Part shown: in pieces, positions 11,491-38,041 of the stretch
How positions within the stretch are numbered: position 1 is the stretch's first letter
Layout: each line of letters begins with the position of its first letter
Source of the DNA: a virus
Direction: 5' to 3' (one strand)
DNA length: 41,641 nucleotides
Virus record (IMG/VR): IMGVR_UViG_3300047201_000005
Span: 1 to 41,641 of that record
The notes under the pieces: generated by a model
Database searches by the model: none
The model's input: the letters and a program-made list of their open reading frames with translations, nothing else
What the model was told of the DNA's origin: nothing
Position numbers and translations under genes: made by a program

Positions 11491-11523
11491 AAGATCACCC
11501 GCTTTGAGTGCCGGTTAATAACC

Positions 11524-11576
11524 AAAAAAAAGGACGCCGGTTAAGCGTATTTCAGGCTTATTAACCGGCGTCCTTT
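11524..11576 (-). terminator. Strong intrinsic terminator (minus strand), possibly bidirectional
   Basis: A perfect 16-bp inverted repeat (11529-11544 with 11561-11576; GGACGCCGGTTAA core) surrounds a 16-nt loop. On the minus strand it is followed at once by eight T (complement of 11524-11531), the textbook intrinsic terminator. On the plus strand the stem ends TCCTTT and then GTTTTT after a short gap. It separates the packaging genes from the protease/capsid genes. A third copy of the arm (GCCGGTTAATAA, 11511-11522) lies just downstream in the minus transcript and could pair with the first arm. Confidence 0.88.
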
Positions 11577-11592
11577 ATAAGTTTTTAAATAT

Positions 11593-11769
11593 CTATGTTA
11601 GAAAAATACACTCCTTACCGAATATTTTCTTATTATCATCTTCAGAAAACCTATCAGAAAAAACCCGCTTATTTACTAAACCAATTTCAAATTCCCATTC
11701 AACAGTCCCACAAACTGGCATATCATCAGGATATGGCTCAAGAGCCTTAATTAACTCAGCCTTTGTCAT
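11593..11769 (-). CDS. Small hypothetical phage protein (58 aa)
   Basis: The start MTKAELIKALEPYPDDMPV is chosen for the GGAG site 4 nt upstream; the longer upstream frame is basic, non-conserved-looking and overlaps the previous gene. The opening LIKALEPYPDDMPV is a common phage micro-family (helix, then P-DDxxV, then a strand VEWEFEIG). It is the last gene before the terminator. Function unknown. Confidence 0.55.
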   Translation of the reverse strand: MTKAELIKALEPYPDDMPVCGTVEWEFEIGLVNKRVFSDRFSEDDNKKIFGKECIFLT

Positions 11770-11791
11770 AACTCTCCCTCTTCTATTCTCT

Positions 11792-12157
11792 CTATGATTC
11801 TTTATCTTCCTCTCGTTTTTGCCTTCGTTTAGCCGGAAGATTAAACAAAGCATTACTAATAGTCTCTGCGAACTCTTCTGAGATTATCAGTTGACCATGA
11901 TCGCCGTCCTCTATTATGCTCATAAGACAATGCTCCCATCCATCTTGATTGTATAAACTTAAATTGTTGGGAATATTATCTTTTTGTGATTCCTCTGTCC
12001 AATTTATCTTTTTATCTGGACTATAAGCCTCGATGTATTTAATTATCTTCTCTAAATCATCTTTTGGTGATTCTGATTCTTTTATAACCAATCCAAAATT
12101 ACATTCACATGATTCCGTTTGATGTCGTGTTTCCATTCTTACAACAAAAAATTTCAT
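11792..12157 (-). CDS. Hypothetical protein (121 aa)
   Basis: Starts MKFFVVRMETRHQTESCECN. The start is chosen because AAGGGGGATATGTAAG precedes it and because the frameshifted MuF product ends just before this ribosome site. Contains an acidic helix (DDLEKIIKYIEAY), DGWEHCLMSIIEDGDHG and a basic C-terminus (PAKRRQKREE). Probably soluble. No family recognised. Confidence 0.5.
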   Translation of the reverse strand: MKFFVVRMETRHQTESCECNFGLVIKESESPKDDLEKIIKYIEAYSPDKKINWTEESQKDNIPNNLSLYNQDGWEHCLMSIIEDGDHGQLIISEEFAETISNALFNLPAKRRQKREEDKES

Positions 12158-12171
12158 CTTACATATCCCCC

Positions 12172-13151
12172 TTATTTTATCCTTACCCATTGACCGAGAA
12201 AAGCATATATTTTAGCACCCTCAAACACAATTGGTATGAGGGTGCATCTGCAAAAGGGTGCAATGGCGAATGACGTATATCCTCATAGCTAAATGTAAAC
12301 CTTATTGATCCCGCCTTCTGATACTTGTTATATACTTCATAGATAAACTTATCATGAGCGGTTGTGATCTCTATGCCTTTTAATATCTTCTCAGGCTTCG
12401 GCAATTCCAGAACATCACCACGATTGAAATAGTTTGTACCAACAGGTATAGGATCTCTGCTTCCCATTTCTGCACACCAGGGACATAACCTTTCATCATG
12501 TGCGCATAACCACTTCTTGCCCTCTACAACCCCGCTTTGTATGTATCCCTGCTCCGCTCCTTCGTTTAACCCCCATATAGCCTCTGTCCTTGCTATCCTA
12601 ACAGACCTAAACTTACTCATGTTGGAGTATAATAATCGTATCTTTTTCTCTAGCTGTGGTATACCATCCCCAGCTTGTATGCTATCAGTTATAACCCTAT
12701 GTAACAAATCTCTTGTCTCATTGATAACGCTATCACTAAAAAGATTCGACTTGTTCGTGACCGCTGACATGACATTCGGGTTTAATACGTCAAACGATAC
12801 ACCCACTTCAAGTGCTTCTAGCTCCAATGATGCCCATGCAGTCATTATGCCCGGAAGTTCTAGTTGGCCGAACTCGTTATAGATGATCCTGTATTTATTC
12901 CAGTCCGCTAAATTGTTCTCGTCTACATACCCAATGCTTTCATCCGCTTTGACCGACTTTCGATTCAGATTGGATAAAATGTCATCAAGCTGGTTATCAA
13001 AGACCTCACGGAGTTTAACACGGTATTTGCGTTGTGGCTTTTCTGATGTCTGTACAAACAGATTCCACCTATCCTCAAGTTTAGTCTTGATGTAGTAATC
13101 GGCTACTGAACGTATGATAAGCGGATTTGTGATAAGGCTACTTCGTGTCAT
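12172..13151 (-). CDS. MuF-type minor head protein with -1 programmed frameshift
   Basis: The zero frame encodes 322 residues and stops at 12183. It has the Mu gpF/SPP1 gp7 features: a helical N-terminus, VRIARTEAIWGLNEGAEQGY, then WLCAHDERLCPWCAEMG and HSPLHPF. MuF proteins end HPxCRCT, but here the zero frame departs into ADAPSYQLCL. A -1 shift at C CCT TTT (12258-12252) restores CRCTLIPIVFEG and runs 26 residues to TAA at 12174-12172, giving 326 residues and ending just ahead of the next ribosome site. A 6-nt spacer and a 9-bp stem follow the slip site. MuF proteins are minor head components found with the portal. No ribosome site is visible at the ATG. Alternative: a real or sequencing deletion of one T. 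Confidence 0.82.
12215..12258 (-). promoter_or_regulatory. -1 ribosomal frameshift signal in the MuF gene
   Basis: The minus strand reads CCCTTTT in frame as C CCT TTT (a full X XXY YYZ heptamer), a 6-nt spacer GCAGAT, then GCACCCTCA (12245-12237) pairing perfectly with TGAGGGTGC (12223-12215) around a 13-nt loop. Heptamer, spacer and stem follow the standard -1 frameshifting design. Re-reading the T at 12252 opens the frame that encodes the family's conserved C-terminus. Confidence 0.75.
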
Positions 13152-13224: not shown

Positions 13225-14583
13225 TTACTTCTTCTCTAACTCCTCTTTAACAGCCTTCGCAAGCGCCTTGCCTTCTTGCTCTGCCCCTACTTCACCTATC
13301 GGAACACCATGATACATCGGGTAATCAATGCCCAAAGGCTCATCATTCATCATAGCACGTACTTGATCTATTGTCCAGATACCATTATTGACATATTCAG
13401 TATTCTCCTTGAGCTCCAATTCCCTGTTGGCTGGCACCGGATCCTCAAATGCTATAAACTTATTCTCGCTATTCGGAAACATCGGGATAAAACTCTGGTT
13501 CATTGCTTCTTGCATATTCTCGCACAATGGCTGTAAAGAATACATTGCAAGCTCTGTTTTCAGCGCATCCTGCGCCGCCCTGCTGGATTCACGCTCAAGC
13601 ATTCCCACGGGGATACCGAATACATTGCAAATCAATTCACGCTCTAGCTTACGATTCGTGACAAATGGCAAATCTCTTGCATTTCCTGATAAGTCTATCG
13701 TCTTGAGATTCCCCGGCAATACTGGCATTTTGTCGCGCTTTGTTGTGCGATACTCTTCCATCTGTAATTGTATATTTTGTCTAACTGGCTCAGATAAAGG
13801 CATGTTCCCTTCGCTGGTTAATATCATTTCACGCCTTAACCTGTTTGCAATCAAATCAAAGAGAAAATCTGTCATGGCATGATCAAGTGAGACAGATTCG
13901 CAAGCGGCTTTTGTTGGAGAGAACCCTGCCGTCCCAAGTGATGGGTTGAAATATGTAAAATGGACGATCTCGCTGGCTTCGTAAATTACTTCAATTTTGC
14001 CATCCTTGTATTCATAGCTGATAATTTCTCCATAAGTTTCGCTGTTATCTGTCAAATCCATTATCGGCTTCATGTATTGCGGGAGAACAAAAAATATCTG
14101 GAATGGAGTGAAACCCTTTCTCACATACCAATAAGCATCGCCTGCTATGTCAAGATGTGTTATCGTGCCTAGTTTTAAGTGACTTTGATTATGGAGCGAG
14201 TTGACTTTGCGTAAGAGATCAAGGATGGGATCGGATGTGATTTCTACCATATCGGTAGCACTGGAGAGCGATTTTTCAAGTGATGGCAAGCTAAAAAGAT
14301 AATCTTTTTGTTTTGTGGTAGTTTCTTTTGCTCTTTGGGATTTCATATCAGTTGTATATAGCTTCCATTTTACGGCCGCCACACCTTTTGCTCTACGCTC
14401 AATACAACTGTATATCGTGCCATAATAACCTTTGAAAAGTTCTGCTATGCTGTGTCCAGAAATAAAGCGCCCGCCTTTTTGCCAGCTTAGAAGATATGAT
14501 AAGTAACCCTCAAAATCCCCCCAAGCTGATTGTATTGTATTCGGAATAGAGGCTTTTTTCTTGAATCTGTCAAAGAGTTTCAT
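13225..14583 (-). CDS. Portal protein (HK97/SPP1-like)
   Basis: 452 residues. Family landmarks in order: N-terminal KLFDRFKKK, YYGTIYSCIERRAKGVAAVKWKLY, LDIAGDAYWYVRKG, FFVLPQYMKPI, IVHFTYFNPSLGTAGFSP, DFLFDLIANRLRREM, FVTNRKLERELICNVFGIPVGML, and the C-terminal NNGIWTIDQVRAMM followed by LGIDYP. This is the dodecameric portal, the channel for DNA entry and exit and the site where terminase and connectors dock. Length is normal. It lies directly after the large terminase gene, which ends three bases upstream, with a GGTGTAATT ribosome site. Confidence 0.92.
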   Translation of the reverse strand: MKLFDRFKKKASIPNTIQSAWGDFEGYLSYLLSWQKGGRFISGHSIAELFKGYYGTIYSCIERRAKGVAAVKWKLYTTDMKSQRAKETTTKQKDYLFSLPSLEKSLSSATDMVEITSDPILDLLRKVNSLHNQSHLKLGTITHLDIAGDAYWYVRKGFTPFQIFFVLPQYMKPIMDLTDNSETYGEIISYEYKDGKIEVIYEASEIVHFTYFNPSLGTAGFSPTKAACESVSLDHAMTDFLFDLIANRLRREMILTSEGNMPLSEPVRQNIQLQMEEYRTTKRDKMPVLPGNLKTIDLSGNARDLPFVTNRKLERELICNVFGIPVGMLERESSRAAQDALKTELAMYSLQPLCENMQEAMNQSFIPMFPNSENKFIAFEDPVPANRELELKENTEYVNNGIWTIDQVRAMMNDEPLGIDYPMYHGVPIGEVGAEQEGKALAKAVKEELEKK

Positions 14584-14585
14584 AA

Positions 14586-15782
14586 TTACACCAAAAAAAC
14601 TATTGGGTCTGAGTAACTCAATCTCGTATACAAAGCATAACGTTCACAGTCCTGTAAATGAAAATTAGGCAATGGTTCTTCAAGCACATTGCCATTTTTA
14701 TCTTCTTTACGCTTATATGTTCTCTTTTCTCTTAAATGATTCTCCGAACAAGAGGCTATCTTTGGTCTTTGTCTCAACACACAATCAATACCGTCTTGTA
14801 CATCCTTTTGTGCTGGATGTATATTAAACCCGGCTTGTGATATTTCCTCTATTCTATCAGGTTCGGCAGAATCAGCGTAAATATTGTCATATTTGTTTGG
14901 TATCAATACATTCATTCTATCAATTAATTGTGCATTTGTCAAATGTTTTTCGTATAAAAGTTCTTTCTCGTATATCTGCGCATCCTTAAATCCAATAAAA
15001 AGTAATGCTGATGGGTTCTCATAGCCAAAATCTAATCCATATATAACCTCATCAAACGATTCAGGAAAATCACCTTCTGATATAATGTCATAATTATTAT
15101 ATATACGGTTTTTCAGCATAGCAGATAAACCTAAACGGTATATCTGATATTGCGTTTCGTCTACTTCTTTAAGTGCGTCAAGTTCCTCTCTATCCTCTTT
15201 GGTAGCGAATAAGTTATCATCAACTGTCGTGATTAAGATATTTGCGTGTTTTTGATACCGTTTATTCTTGTCATTTTCTTCATCAAAAAACAATTCCTTT
15301 GTCCAGTGGTAAAAATCATCCGGATTGTAGCTAAGGATTGTCTGCTTGTACGTATTGCGAACAGCCCGCATGCGCCTATTGACTTCAAGAAAATCATAAA
15401 AATTGAATTCTATTGCTTCTTCTAGCCAACAGGAAGTCACACCCACGATTGACTTTATCTTCTGTGGATCGTCCAGCCCGGAGCAGATGATAAACGTTCC
15501 GTTAGGAAAGGTTATCTTCATATCTGTTTCGTGGATATGGACTTTATCATATAATTCATACTCAACTAATCGCTTCAAGAACTCTTGCCATATTGACCGC
15601 CGGGACGTTGGATTCGATGTACGCAAACATAAAAAGCCCTGTATCTCTGGACATAAACACCGAAGGATAATCTTCTGTGTAATGAAATGGCTTTTGCCAC
15701 TGCTTGATCCGCCCTGTAATACTAGATAACGTGAGCGATCATTGAGCAAAGGACGATATATGTCATTGATTATGAACTTCAT
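14586..15782 (-). CDS. terL: Terminase large subunit (Terminase_3/PBSX-like)
   Basis: 398 residues. The ATPase half has Walker A QGGSSSGKSH (residues 23-32) and Walker B-like SCWLEEAIEF. The sequence LSYNPDDFYHW resembles the coupling region. The nuclease half has the catalytic Asp in VIYGLDFGYENPSALL and a second in IYADSAEPDRIEEI. Together these mark the DNA-packaging motor that cuts concatemers and pumps DNA through the portal. The gene overlaps the small upstream gene by four bases (ATGA). The slightly short length is within the PBSX-type range. Confidence 0.93.
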   Translation of the reverse strand: MKFIINDIYRPLLNDRSRYLVLQGGSSSGKSHFITQKIILRCLCPEIQGFLCLRTSNPTSRRSIWQEFLKRLVEYELYDKVHIHETDMKITFPNGTFIICSGLDDPQKIKSIVGVTSCWLEEAIEFNFYDFLEVNRRMRAVRNTYKQTILSYNPDDFYHWTKELFFDEENDKNKRYQKHANILITTVDDNLFATKEDREELDALKEVDETQYQIYRLGLSAMLKNRIYNNYDIISEGDFPESFDEVIYGLDFGYENPSALLFIGFKDAQIYEKELLYEKHLTNAQLIDRMNVLIPNKYDNIYADSAEPDRIEEISQAGFNIHPAQKDVQDGIDCVLRQRPKIASCSENHLREKRTYKRKEDKNGNVLEEPLPNFHLQDCERYALYTRLSYSDPIVFLV

Positions 15783-18003: not shown

Positions 18004-18079
18004 TGGTAGCGGAGGAAGGAATCGAACCTTCATAACCAAGTTTATGAGACTTGTCGGCTGCCATTGCCAACACACCGCA
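18004..18079 (-). tRNA. tRNA-Met (anticodon CAU)
   Basis: The minus strand folds as a 76-nt cloverleaf with an encoded CCA. The T arm is GAAGG-TTCGATT-CCTTC, the anticodon arm CAAGT-CTCATAA-ACTTG with CAU, the D arm TTGGC-AATGGCA-GCCGA, and the variable loop 5 nt. The acceptor TGCGGTG/CTCCGCT has two mismatches (U1.U72 and U6.U67), which is unusual. CAU could decode Met or, after lysidine modification, the Ile codon AUA; the sequence does not decide. It lies between an HNH gene and the ParB-like gene. Confidence 0.85.
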
Positions 18080-37319: not shown

Positions 37320-37625
37320 TTATCCTCGCTTCAATGGTGGCTTTATGCCATGCAATATCGCCTGTCTTTGCGTCTCCGCAAGTTCCCTCTCTTTGATCAT
37401 TTCAACCGTCTCGTCCTCACCTAACTCCTCTTTTGCCTGATAATCCTCAACCAAAAAGCTAAACAAAACGTGCTTTATATCCCTTAGATAATACCTTATC
37501 CGTTCCAATGGCGATACCCATTGAATTTGTGAAATATAATTTTGTACTTGTATTTCTGTCATCTTATTAACATCTTTTCCCGGATAATGATGCTCTATAA
37601 GTGCATAAACCCTTCTCCATGTCAA
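37320..37625 (-). CDS. Tail assembly chaperone, T part (read by -1 frameshift)
   Basis: 101 codons in the -1 frame relative to the upstream gene. The frame has no ATG at its start; it can be entered at TTG or, more likely, by slippage at A AAC CCT (37631-37625), giving a 240-residue fusion. Residues ~25-65 (TEIQVQNYISQIQWVSPLER) and the acidic C-terminus fit the T domain that recruits tail-tube subunits onto the tape measure. This mirrors lambda gpG/gpGT. It ends one base before the tape measure gene. Confidence 0.82.
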   Translation of the reverse strand: MTWRRVYALIEHHYPGKDVNKMTEIQVQNYISQIQWVSPLERIRYYLRDIKHVLFSFLVEDYQAKEELGEDETVEMIKERELAETQRQAILHGIKPPLKRG

Positions 37626-37631
37626 GGGTTT
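37607..37631 (-). promoter_or_regulatory. -1 frameshift site of the tail chaperones
   Basis: The heptamer A AAC CCT (37631-37625) lies immediately before the TGA of the first frame (37624-37622), and tRNAs re-pair as AAA CCC. AAACCCTT (37631-37624) is also the exact complement of AAGGGTTT (37614-37607), so the slip site can itself be part of an 8-bp hairpin. Whether that hairpin helps or limits slippage cannot be told. Confidence 0.75.
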
Positions 37632-38041
37632 CCAGCAGGCTCACCTGCCTTTGGCTTTGGGATAGATAAATCCATAATCAGCGTCATCAAGTCTTGTTGT
37701 TTGTTTATACCCTTTTCTTCATCAATTTCGAGATTAACAAGCCATTCCTTCATATCTTCTTTTGCCCATTTGTTCAGCTTCAATGCTGACCAAAAGAACT
37801 CAATAAAGATTTCATCACGTCCAAGTGATCGGAAAATGTCCTGACTCGTGATCGGCATTGCGCGCACTGATTGAAGTTCTTGCTGCCGAATGTCGAAATC
37901 CTCTAGCTTGTATGCGTCTGACATTAACAGACTGCGCAGTTTTGAAAACATAGAAGCCCAATCTTCTAAAAGGATCGGTTTGATGATCTTGCCTTCAAAC
38001 TCACTATTCGCACCCGATATTTCTTCCAGACTGTCTTTCAT
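37622..38041 (-). CDS. Tail assembly chaperone, G part
   Basis: 139 residues: an N-terminal acidic section, LLEDWASMFSKLRSLLMSDA, then DIFRSLGRDEIFIEFFWSAL and KWAKEDMKEWLVNLEID, mostly helical. It sits between the tail-tube genes and the tape measure, the standard place of the G chaperone that coats the tape measure. The last codons contain the slippery heptamer that fuses part of the product to the T frame. AAGGGGGATAT precedes the ATG. Confidence 0.8.
   Translation of the reverse strand: MKDSLEEISGANSEFEGKIIKPILLEDWASMFSKLRSLLMSDAYKLEDFDIRQQELQSVRAMPITSQDIFRSLGRDEIFIEFFWSALKLNKWAKEDMKEWLVNLEIDEEKGINKQQDLMTLIMDLSIPKPKAGEPAGNP

Follow-up and report, generated by a model that had tools for sequence, protein, structure and literature searches.

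We have identified what is probably a -1 programmed ribosomal frameshift close to the 3' end of the gene for a MuF (SPP1 gp7-like) minor head protein in a 41,641-base virus record, the whole of which was analysed and is called the window here. The zero-frame MuF protein lacks a C-terminal CRC motif, which is encoded in the -1 frame only. The MuF gene is located after the terminase and portal genes and ahead of the protease and capsid genes, the order on the minus strand being terminase, portal, MuF, two small ORFs, protease and major capsid. All elements of the signal lie on this strand, where a CAC codon is found at 12260.

14586-15782, minus strand: terminase gene, with a Pfam match
13225-14583, minus strand: portal gene, with a Pfam match
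13151-12183, minus strand: MuF (SPP1 gp7-like) minor head protein gene in the zero frame, 322 aa, with a PF04233 match
12258-12252, minus strand: slippery heptamer C CCT TTT, in frame
12251-12246, minus strand: 6-nt spacer GCAGAT
12245-12237, minus strand: 5' arm of the stem, GCACCCTCA
12236-12224, minus strand: 13-nt loop
12223-12215, minus strand: 3' arm of the stem, TGAGGGTGC
12215-12245, minus strand: whole stem-loop with a perfect 9-bp stem, the presumed frameshift stimulator
12172-12258, minus strand: -1 tail, PFCRCTLIPIVFEGAKIYAFLGQWVRIK and stop, carrying the conserved CRC motif and aligning with the relative L002
12183-12251, minus strand: zero-frame tail, ADAPSYQLCLRVLKYMLFSVNG and stop, 22 residues without CRC
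12155-12171, minus strand: ribosome-binding-like site GGGGG (12171-12167) and ATG of the next gene (12157), assigned by inspection

Every countable detail of the original prediction (heptamer, 6-nt spacer, perfect 9-bp stem, 13-nt loop) proved exact, as did the 22-residue zero-frame tail without CRC. Moving back by one base at the heptamer yields HPF-CRCTLIPIVFEGAKIYAFLGQWVRIK, and the segment HPF-CRCTLIPI, read in the -1 frame only, aligns with LHCSCRCTLLPVV of L002, the nearest intact relative. The -1 frame closes with a TAA at 12174-12172 that abuts the GGGGG, in agreement with the claim that it stops right before the ribosome site of the next gene. The two ends are of nearly equal length, the transframe product having 326 aa versus 322 aa for the zero-frame protein. 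A z-score of -3.76 was obtained for the 63 nt that include the slippery site. Three marks of a -1 programmed frameshift are thus present in the window, namely an X XXY YYZ heptamer at the overlap of the frames, a stable structure about 5-9 nt downstream, and a shifted frame that encodes a family-conserved protein (the CRC block, with rising Pfam and NCBIfam scores). By eye, no Shine-Dalgarno-like stimulator was seen at the usual upstream distance. A pseudoknot is not claimed, as comparison of the loop with the downstream sequence gave just two 4-nt matches, and transcriptional slippage was set aside since a run of four T is short for that process.

Profile searches bear out the claim that only the shifted frame gives the end typical of MuF proteins. 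The Phage_Mu_F score rises from 30.7 bits for the protein cut before the break to 39.2 bits when the -1 tail is added, and that of TIGR01641 (cut-off 39.65) rises from 24.1 bits for the zero-frame protein, below the cut-off, to 39.2 bits for the transframe protein, marginally below it; L002 scores 70.4 bits against the same model. The zero-frame protein passes PF04233 (Phage_Mu_F) at 30.4 bits against a cut-off of 29.6, and the portal gene adjoins it. Matches to Pfam models are near full length for the terminase, portal, capsid and methylase genes of the window, and the protease covers just positions 76-160 of the 165 of its model, about half. A sequence search of the PDB returned the portal protein 8qqn (E 0.18 with one sequence, 0.00011 with profile A2), in a match that spans profile positions 146-219 of 294 and leaves the CRC end outside. 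Two more PDB matches were disregarded as weak (E 0.06 and 0.08), and a predicted fold of L002 (9 sequences) was discarded at a mean pLDDT of 49.5.

The CRC end among MuF relatives

Relatives from IMG/VR and from named records were compared for the state of the CRC end. L002, the nearest in-frame relative (50% identical in the best segment), reads LHCSCRCTLLPVVDIGKAYMRYLAYKWY unbroken and has neither the heptamer nor a comparable stem. The motif is in frame in 10 distinct other IMG/VR MuF genes (L002, L010, L011, L012, L013, L021, L022, L038, L039 and L041), a count that leaves out the gene of the window and L003 and from which L019 and L023 were dropped because their peptides are the same as those of L012 and L013; L040 showed no CRC. 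Among 28 named phage and plasmid records, hand-picked from hit lists, CRC was in frame in 21, in another frame in two (L032 and L043) and not found in four (L028, L035, L046 and L058), and L053 has CGC in frame. Since CRC is in frame in these ten genes and in 21 of the 28 named records, the -1 end of the window's gene is the end of the family.

One of the in-frame relatives bears directly on how the heptamer is to be weighed. In L010 the corresponding HPF codons (of HPFCRC) also contain an in-frame C CCT TTT, the frame being unbroken and without a properly placed stem; this shifts weight from -1 programmed frameshifting toward mutation, and it is the reason that the stem carries most of the evidence. 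The best stems starting at 0-19 nt measured 7 bp in L003, 6 bp in L010, 5 bp in L002, L021 and L022, and 4 bp in L011 and L013. L012 is in frame throughout a portal-MuF-like gene of 745 aa and shows a perfect, chance-like 8-bp stem (14-nt loop) just past the CRC codons.

The signal recurs in a second IMG/VR contig, all 10,977 nt of which are identical to the window; this contig possibly comes from the same population or sample, and so bears more on assembly error than on mutation. Besides this contig, no relative was found with heptamer and stem, and no relative closer than L002 was found in scans of viral and genome sequences by exact short peptide and DNA patterns, which can miss relatives. 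A pattern scan for HPF-CRC, limited to CAC, CCN and TTT codons, asked whether such genes often break at the T run. It returned 17 stretches, comprising one twin of the window, eight in-frame HPFCRCT ends (six distinct long ORFs) and eight others that sit in ORFs of 15-75 aa and are chance-like.

These comparisons leave the original prediction standing in part. Its signal and an above-chance stem are there, but it had also taken homologues with an uninterrupted frame and no stem as marks of a sequencing error or simple mutation, and L002 and the other in-frame relatives are of that kind, so that the signal is known in one lineage only. The alignment of homologues that it proposed as a check shows heptamer and stem conserved in the identical contig and in no other relative.

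Signal, chance and rival explanations

The stem is well above chance, and it is stronger evidence than the heptamer. In-frame heptamers number 48 in 42 ORFs of the window that were taken as genes (10,803 codon positions), these being minus-strand ORFs located between 6.4 and 41.6 kb; a perfect stem of at least 7 bp occurs at one of the 48, that of MuF, and the runners-up have 6 bp. At 29 other loci (220 ORFs, 61,915 codons), none of 291 in-frame heptamers has a stem of at least 7 bp at a spacing of 4-9 nt. Irrespective of heptamers, perfect stems of at least 9 bp with loops of 3-20 nt, placed 5-7 nt downstream, were counted at 43 of 41,561 positions, and 23 of 13,867 stretches of 40 nt fold at -18.2 kcal/mol or better. 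Such frequencies should be read with selection in mind, as a reader scanning many windows preferentially picks cases of this sort.

A simple frameshift mutation in a tolerated C-terminus is the alternative that survives best, and we regard it as unlikely. It would consist of a one-base change in the T run of a gene that is decaying or functional without CRC, with the stem a coincidence; in a milder form, some complete protein is still made through chance slippage. In favour of mutation, CRC is in frame in the ten further IMG/VR genes and the 21 named records, and the T run at the HPF codons is a natural site for an indel, which brings the heptamer along, as L010 illustrates. Random 1-nt deletions in 15 genes of the window produced a heptamer exactly restoring the protein in 49 of 18,417 cases (4 of 289 at runs of at least four, 1 of 96 at runs of at least five), figures that overstate the weight of the heptamer because the His-Pro-Phe codons CAC CCT TTT themselves create C CCT TTT. 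The signal is common only to the window and the identical contig, possibly of one population, and the gene is disordered in L003, a member of this clade, so the end may be decaying in the clade. A damaged MuF could also be tolerated, given that assembly of SPP1 does not require gp7, although only about 25% of the virions lacking it are infectious (PMC6316719).

What mutation leaves unexplained is the correctly spaced 9-bp stem. The -1 frame is also open through to the natural end. In a synonymous-codon null, the tail was re-coded with the phage's own codon usage in 20,000 trials. When the -1 protein was kept, stems of at least 9 bp arose in 26 of the 20,000 trials, of at least 8 bp in 99 and, by the laxer threshold, of at least 7 bp in 236; when the zero-frame tail was kept, the corresponding counts were 2, 6 and 39. 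The real 40-nt fold was matched by 0 of 3,000 re-coded sequences in either set. Two codons of the stem, CTC (0.10 of its family) and ACC (0.14), are rare synonyms in this phage, and the remaining stem codons are common.

A sequencing or assembly error in the T run is very improbable. In its favour, the frame hinges on how long a short homopolymer is, and both contigs may derive from one sample; on the other side, the second record is identical throughout, the conserved neighbouring genes fit their models, and an error would again leave the stem unexplained. Least credible of all is that the stem, which is close to the gene end, has another role, in RNA processing or as a weak terminator separating MuF from the gene that follows, with no link to the frame break, as no T run follows the stem, Rfam at gathering scores gave no family in 12000-12400, and the stem lies within both reading frames, 6 nt past the heptamer.

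A +1 frame break in Bacillaceae portal-MuF genes

The two named records with CRC in another frame are related to each other, and in both the break lies at TAT CCC AGG.

L032:1355-1440 (Parageobacillus phage JGon-2020a): +1 frame break at TAT CCC AGG, CRC tail in the +1 frame
L043:1648-1733 (Anoxybacillus sp. B7M1 plasmid): +1 frame break at TAT CCC AGG, CRC tail in the +1 frame

In JGon-2020a, the zero frame of the portal-MuF gene ends in GGEKAMYPR and stop without CRC, and the block GDPNLSAKQRIKCRCAELHRVKEG with its stop is in the +1 frame. The B7M1 plasmid, which has 77.7% DNA identity to it over the region, shows the identical arrangement, its zero frame ending in RRP and stop, where the annotated portal also stops. 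The break at CCC AGG precedes CRC by 12 codons, and single 72-nt folds of the two sequences gave no obvious long stem. The next match to the tail, an Exiguobacterium plasmid gene (L060), is in frame with FPGDPKLPAKERIHCRCAEKHKVKE.

All 11 codons that differ between the two tails do so at the third position and are synonymous in the +1 frame, whereas of the codons changed in the 606 nt upstream of the tail, 72 are synonymous and 27 are not. Over an alternative span (without the first tail codon and running past the stop), the +1 frame has 10 synonymous changes and one that is not, versus none and 12 in the zero frame. The 24-residue +1 tail bears the mark of purifying selection and, on this codon pattern, is very probably both translated and selected. 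A shared read error is unlikely because the two genomes are too different. At the likely site, the tRNA bound to CCC would re-pair to CCA ahead of AGG; the tail tube gene of SPP1 has been described as using a +1 shift based on CCC (PMC6316719). Recoding ahead of the MuF CRC motif thus appears very probable in these two genes, and since a conserved +1 break precedes the CRC tail in this other MuF lineage, recoding before the motif is judged most likely in the window as well.

A third interruption is found at L003:2195-2390, in a MuF gene whose C-terminal block is displaced to mid-gene, between the N-terminal part and the middle part, and in which TGA, followed by C, takes the place of the first CRC cysteine codon. 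This oddity may be a leaky UGA, decay or misassembly, and no further copy of the arrangement was found. Selenocysteine at this UGA has no support, Rfam at gathering scores being empty for L003. Three kinds of interruption therefore lie at, or at most 12 codons before, CRC, two of them in one small clade, which could mean either a recurrent device or an end that is dispensable in the clade of the window; we favour a device because the +1 pair is conserved.

Proposed mechanism and comparison with known frameshifts

From the heptamer, the spacer, the stem and the homologous coding of the -1 frame, all read directly in the DNA, we infer the following course of translation. The majority of ribosomes would stay in the zero frame at CCT TTT and end with the 22-residue tail. 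Some would pause at the stem while tRNA-Pro occupies CCU and tRNA-Phe occupies UUU, both tRNAs would slip back by one base to pair with CCC and UUU, and the slipped ribosomes would end with CRCTLIPI..., the last conserved MuF block. In this way, two head proteins of near-equal length would be made in a set ratio, with their ends swapped rather than extended. Only the -1 product would have the complete C-x2-C ... H-P-x-C-R-C cluster, the other form being without the CRC cysteines; by its residue pattern, this Cys/His cluster may be a structural metal site. SPP1 gp7 interacts strongly with the portal protein, through which few copies enter the procapsid (PMC6316719). Conjecturally, a ratio set by frameshifting would suit a protein of which a small, fixed number is needed, and the ratio of products might limit the number of complete MuF copies that are built in.

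A broader proposal, which we put forward tentatively as somewhat short of an even chance, is that the CRC end of MuF is a recurrent recoding switch, independently placed under frameshift control in unrelated phages so that only a set share of the protein is completed. It would operate through a -1 heptamer and stem in the window, a +1 shift at CCC AGG in the Bacillaceae and perhaps a leaky UGA C in L003, and could provide, for example, one or a few complete MuF or portal-MuF copies per portal ring or head.

Frameshifting in tailed phages is best known from tail chaperones, with some cases in coat and tail-tube genes. According to a review (PMC5009743), -1 frameshifts occur in head or coat genes of Lactobacillus phage A2, T3 and Listeria phages A118 and A500; these resemble the window in that two proteins sharing an N-terminus arise from one structural head gene by a -1 shift. 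For A2 and T3, the review describes a major head protein that gains an Ig-like extension through the shift, whereas in the window the protein is a minor head protein, ends of about the same length are swapped, and the conserved end of the family is the shifted one. The -1 shift of the G/GT tail chaperones likewise takes place at an XXXYYYZ heptamer towards the end of a morphogenesis gene, but in another gene and with fusion to a second ORF (PMC6316719 and PMC7911831). In all, the case of the window seems likely to belong with known frameshifting in phage structural genes, being unusual in that the shifted frame holds the conserved end of the family.

A further comparison is with L032 and L043, where the zero frame also exits the MuF domain ahead of the CRC block, the shifted frame encodes the block, and an in-frame relative (L060) is known; unlike the window, they shift +1 at CCC AGG, and their MuF is fused to the portal. 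The prfB gene, whose conserved full-length product needs a +1 frameshift and which is autoregulated by release factor 2, offers another parallel. As in prfB, the conserved full-length MuF depends on a shift, and autoregulation of the prfB type is not evident in the window.

As to the slippery site, C CCU UUU is that of West Nile virus, on eukaryotic ribosomes (PMC11507841), and for the tail chaperone of E. coli phage 9g a -2 shift at CCCUUUUUUU has been proposed (PMC4276943). No report of frameshifting in MuF was found in the one open-licence literature library searched; the PRFect paper (PMC10885494) lists MuF-like genes as false positives with regard to a single VIP2-MuF fusion gene, not the CRC motif. 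If the reading proposed here is true, frameshifting would have a new use, in determining whether or not a minor head protein, or one fused to the portal, receives the motif that is most conserved in it. Gene callers could then truncate such proteins, as with the B7M1 portal, and the system would offer a handle on the purpose of the CRC cluster in MuF and on why few copies may suffice.

Three other features of the window were recorded. A candidate tail chaperone lies at 37320-38041 on the minus strand, where 38041-37622 would be joined by a -1 shift to 37625-37320; its heptamer, A AAC CCT at 37631, stands immediately before a TGA and inside an 8-bp stem rather than upstream of one, and neither ORF had a PHROG match at E 0.001. 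A very stable terminator-like hairpin (about -27 kcal/mol per 63 nt) is present at 11520-11585, in the gap that separates the gene at 11593-11853 from the protease gene, and a single tRNA gene, with anticodon CAT, is located at 18004-18079.
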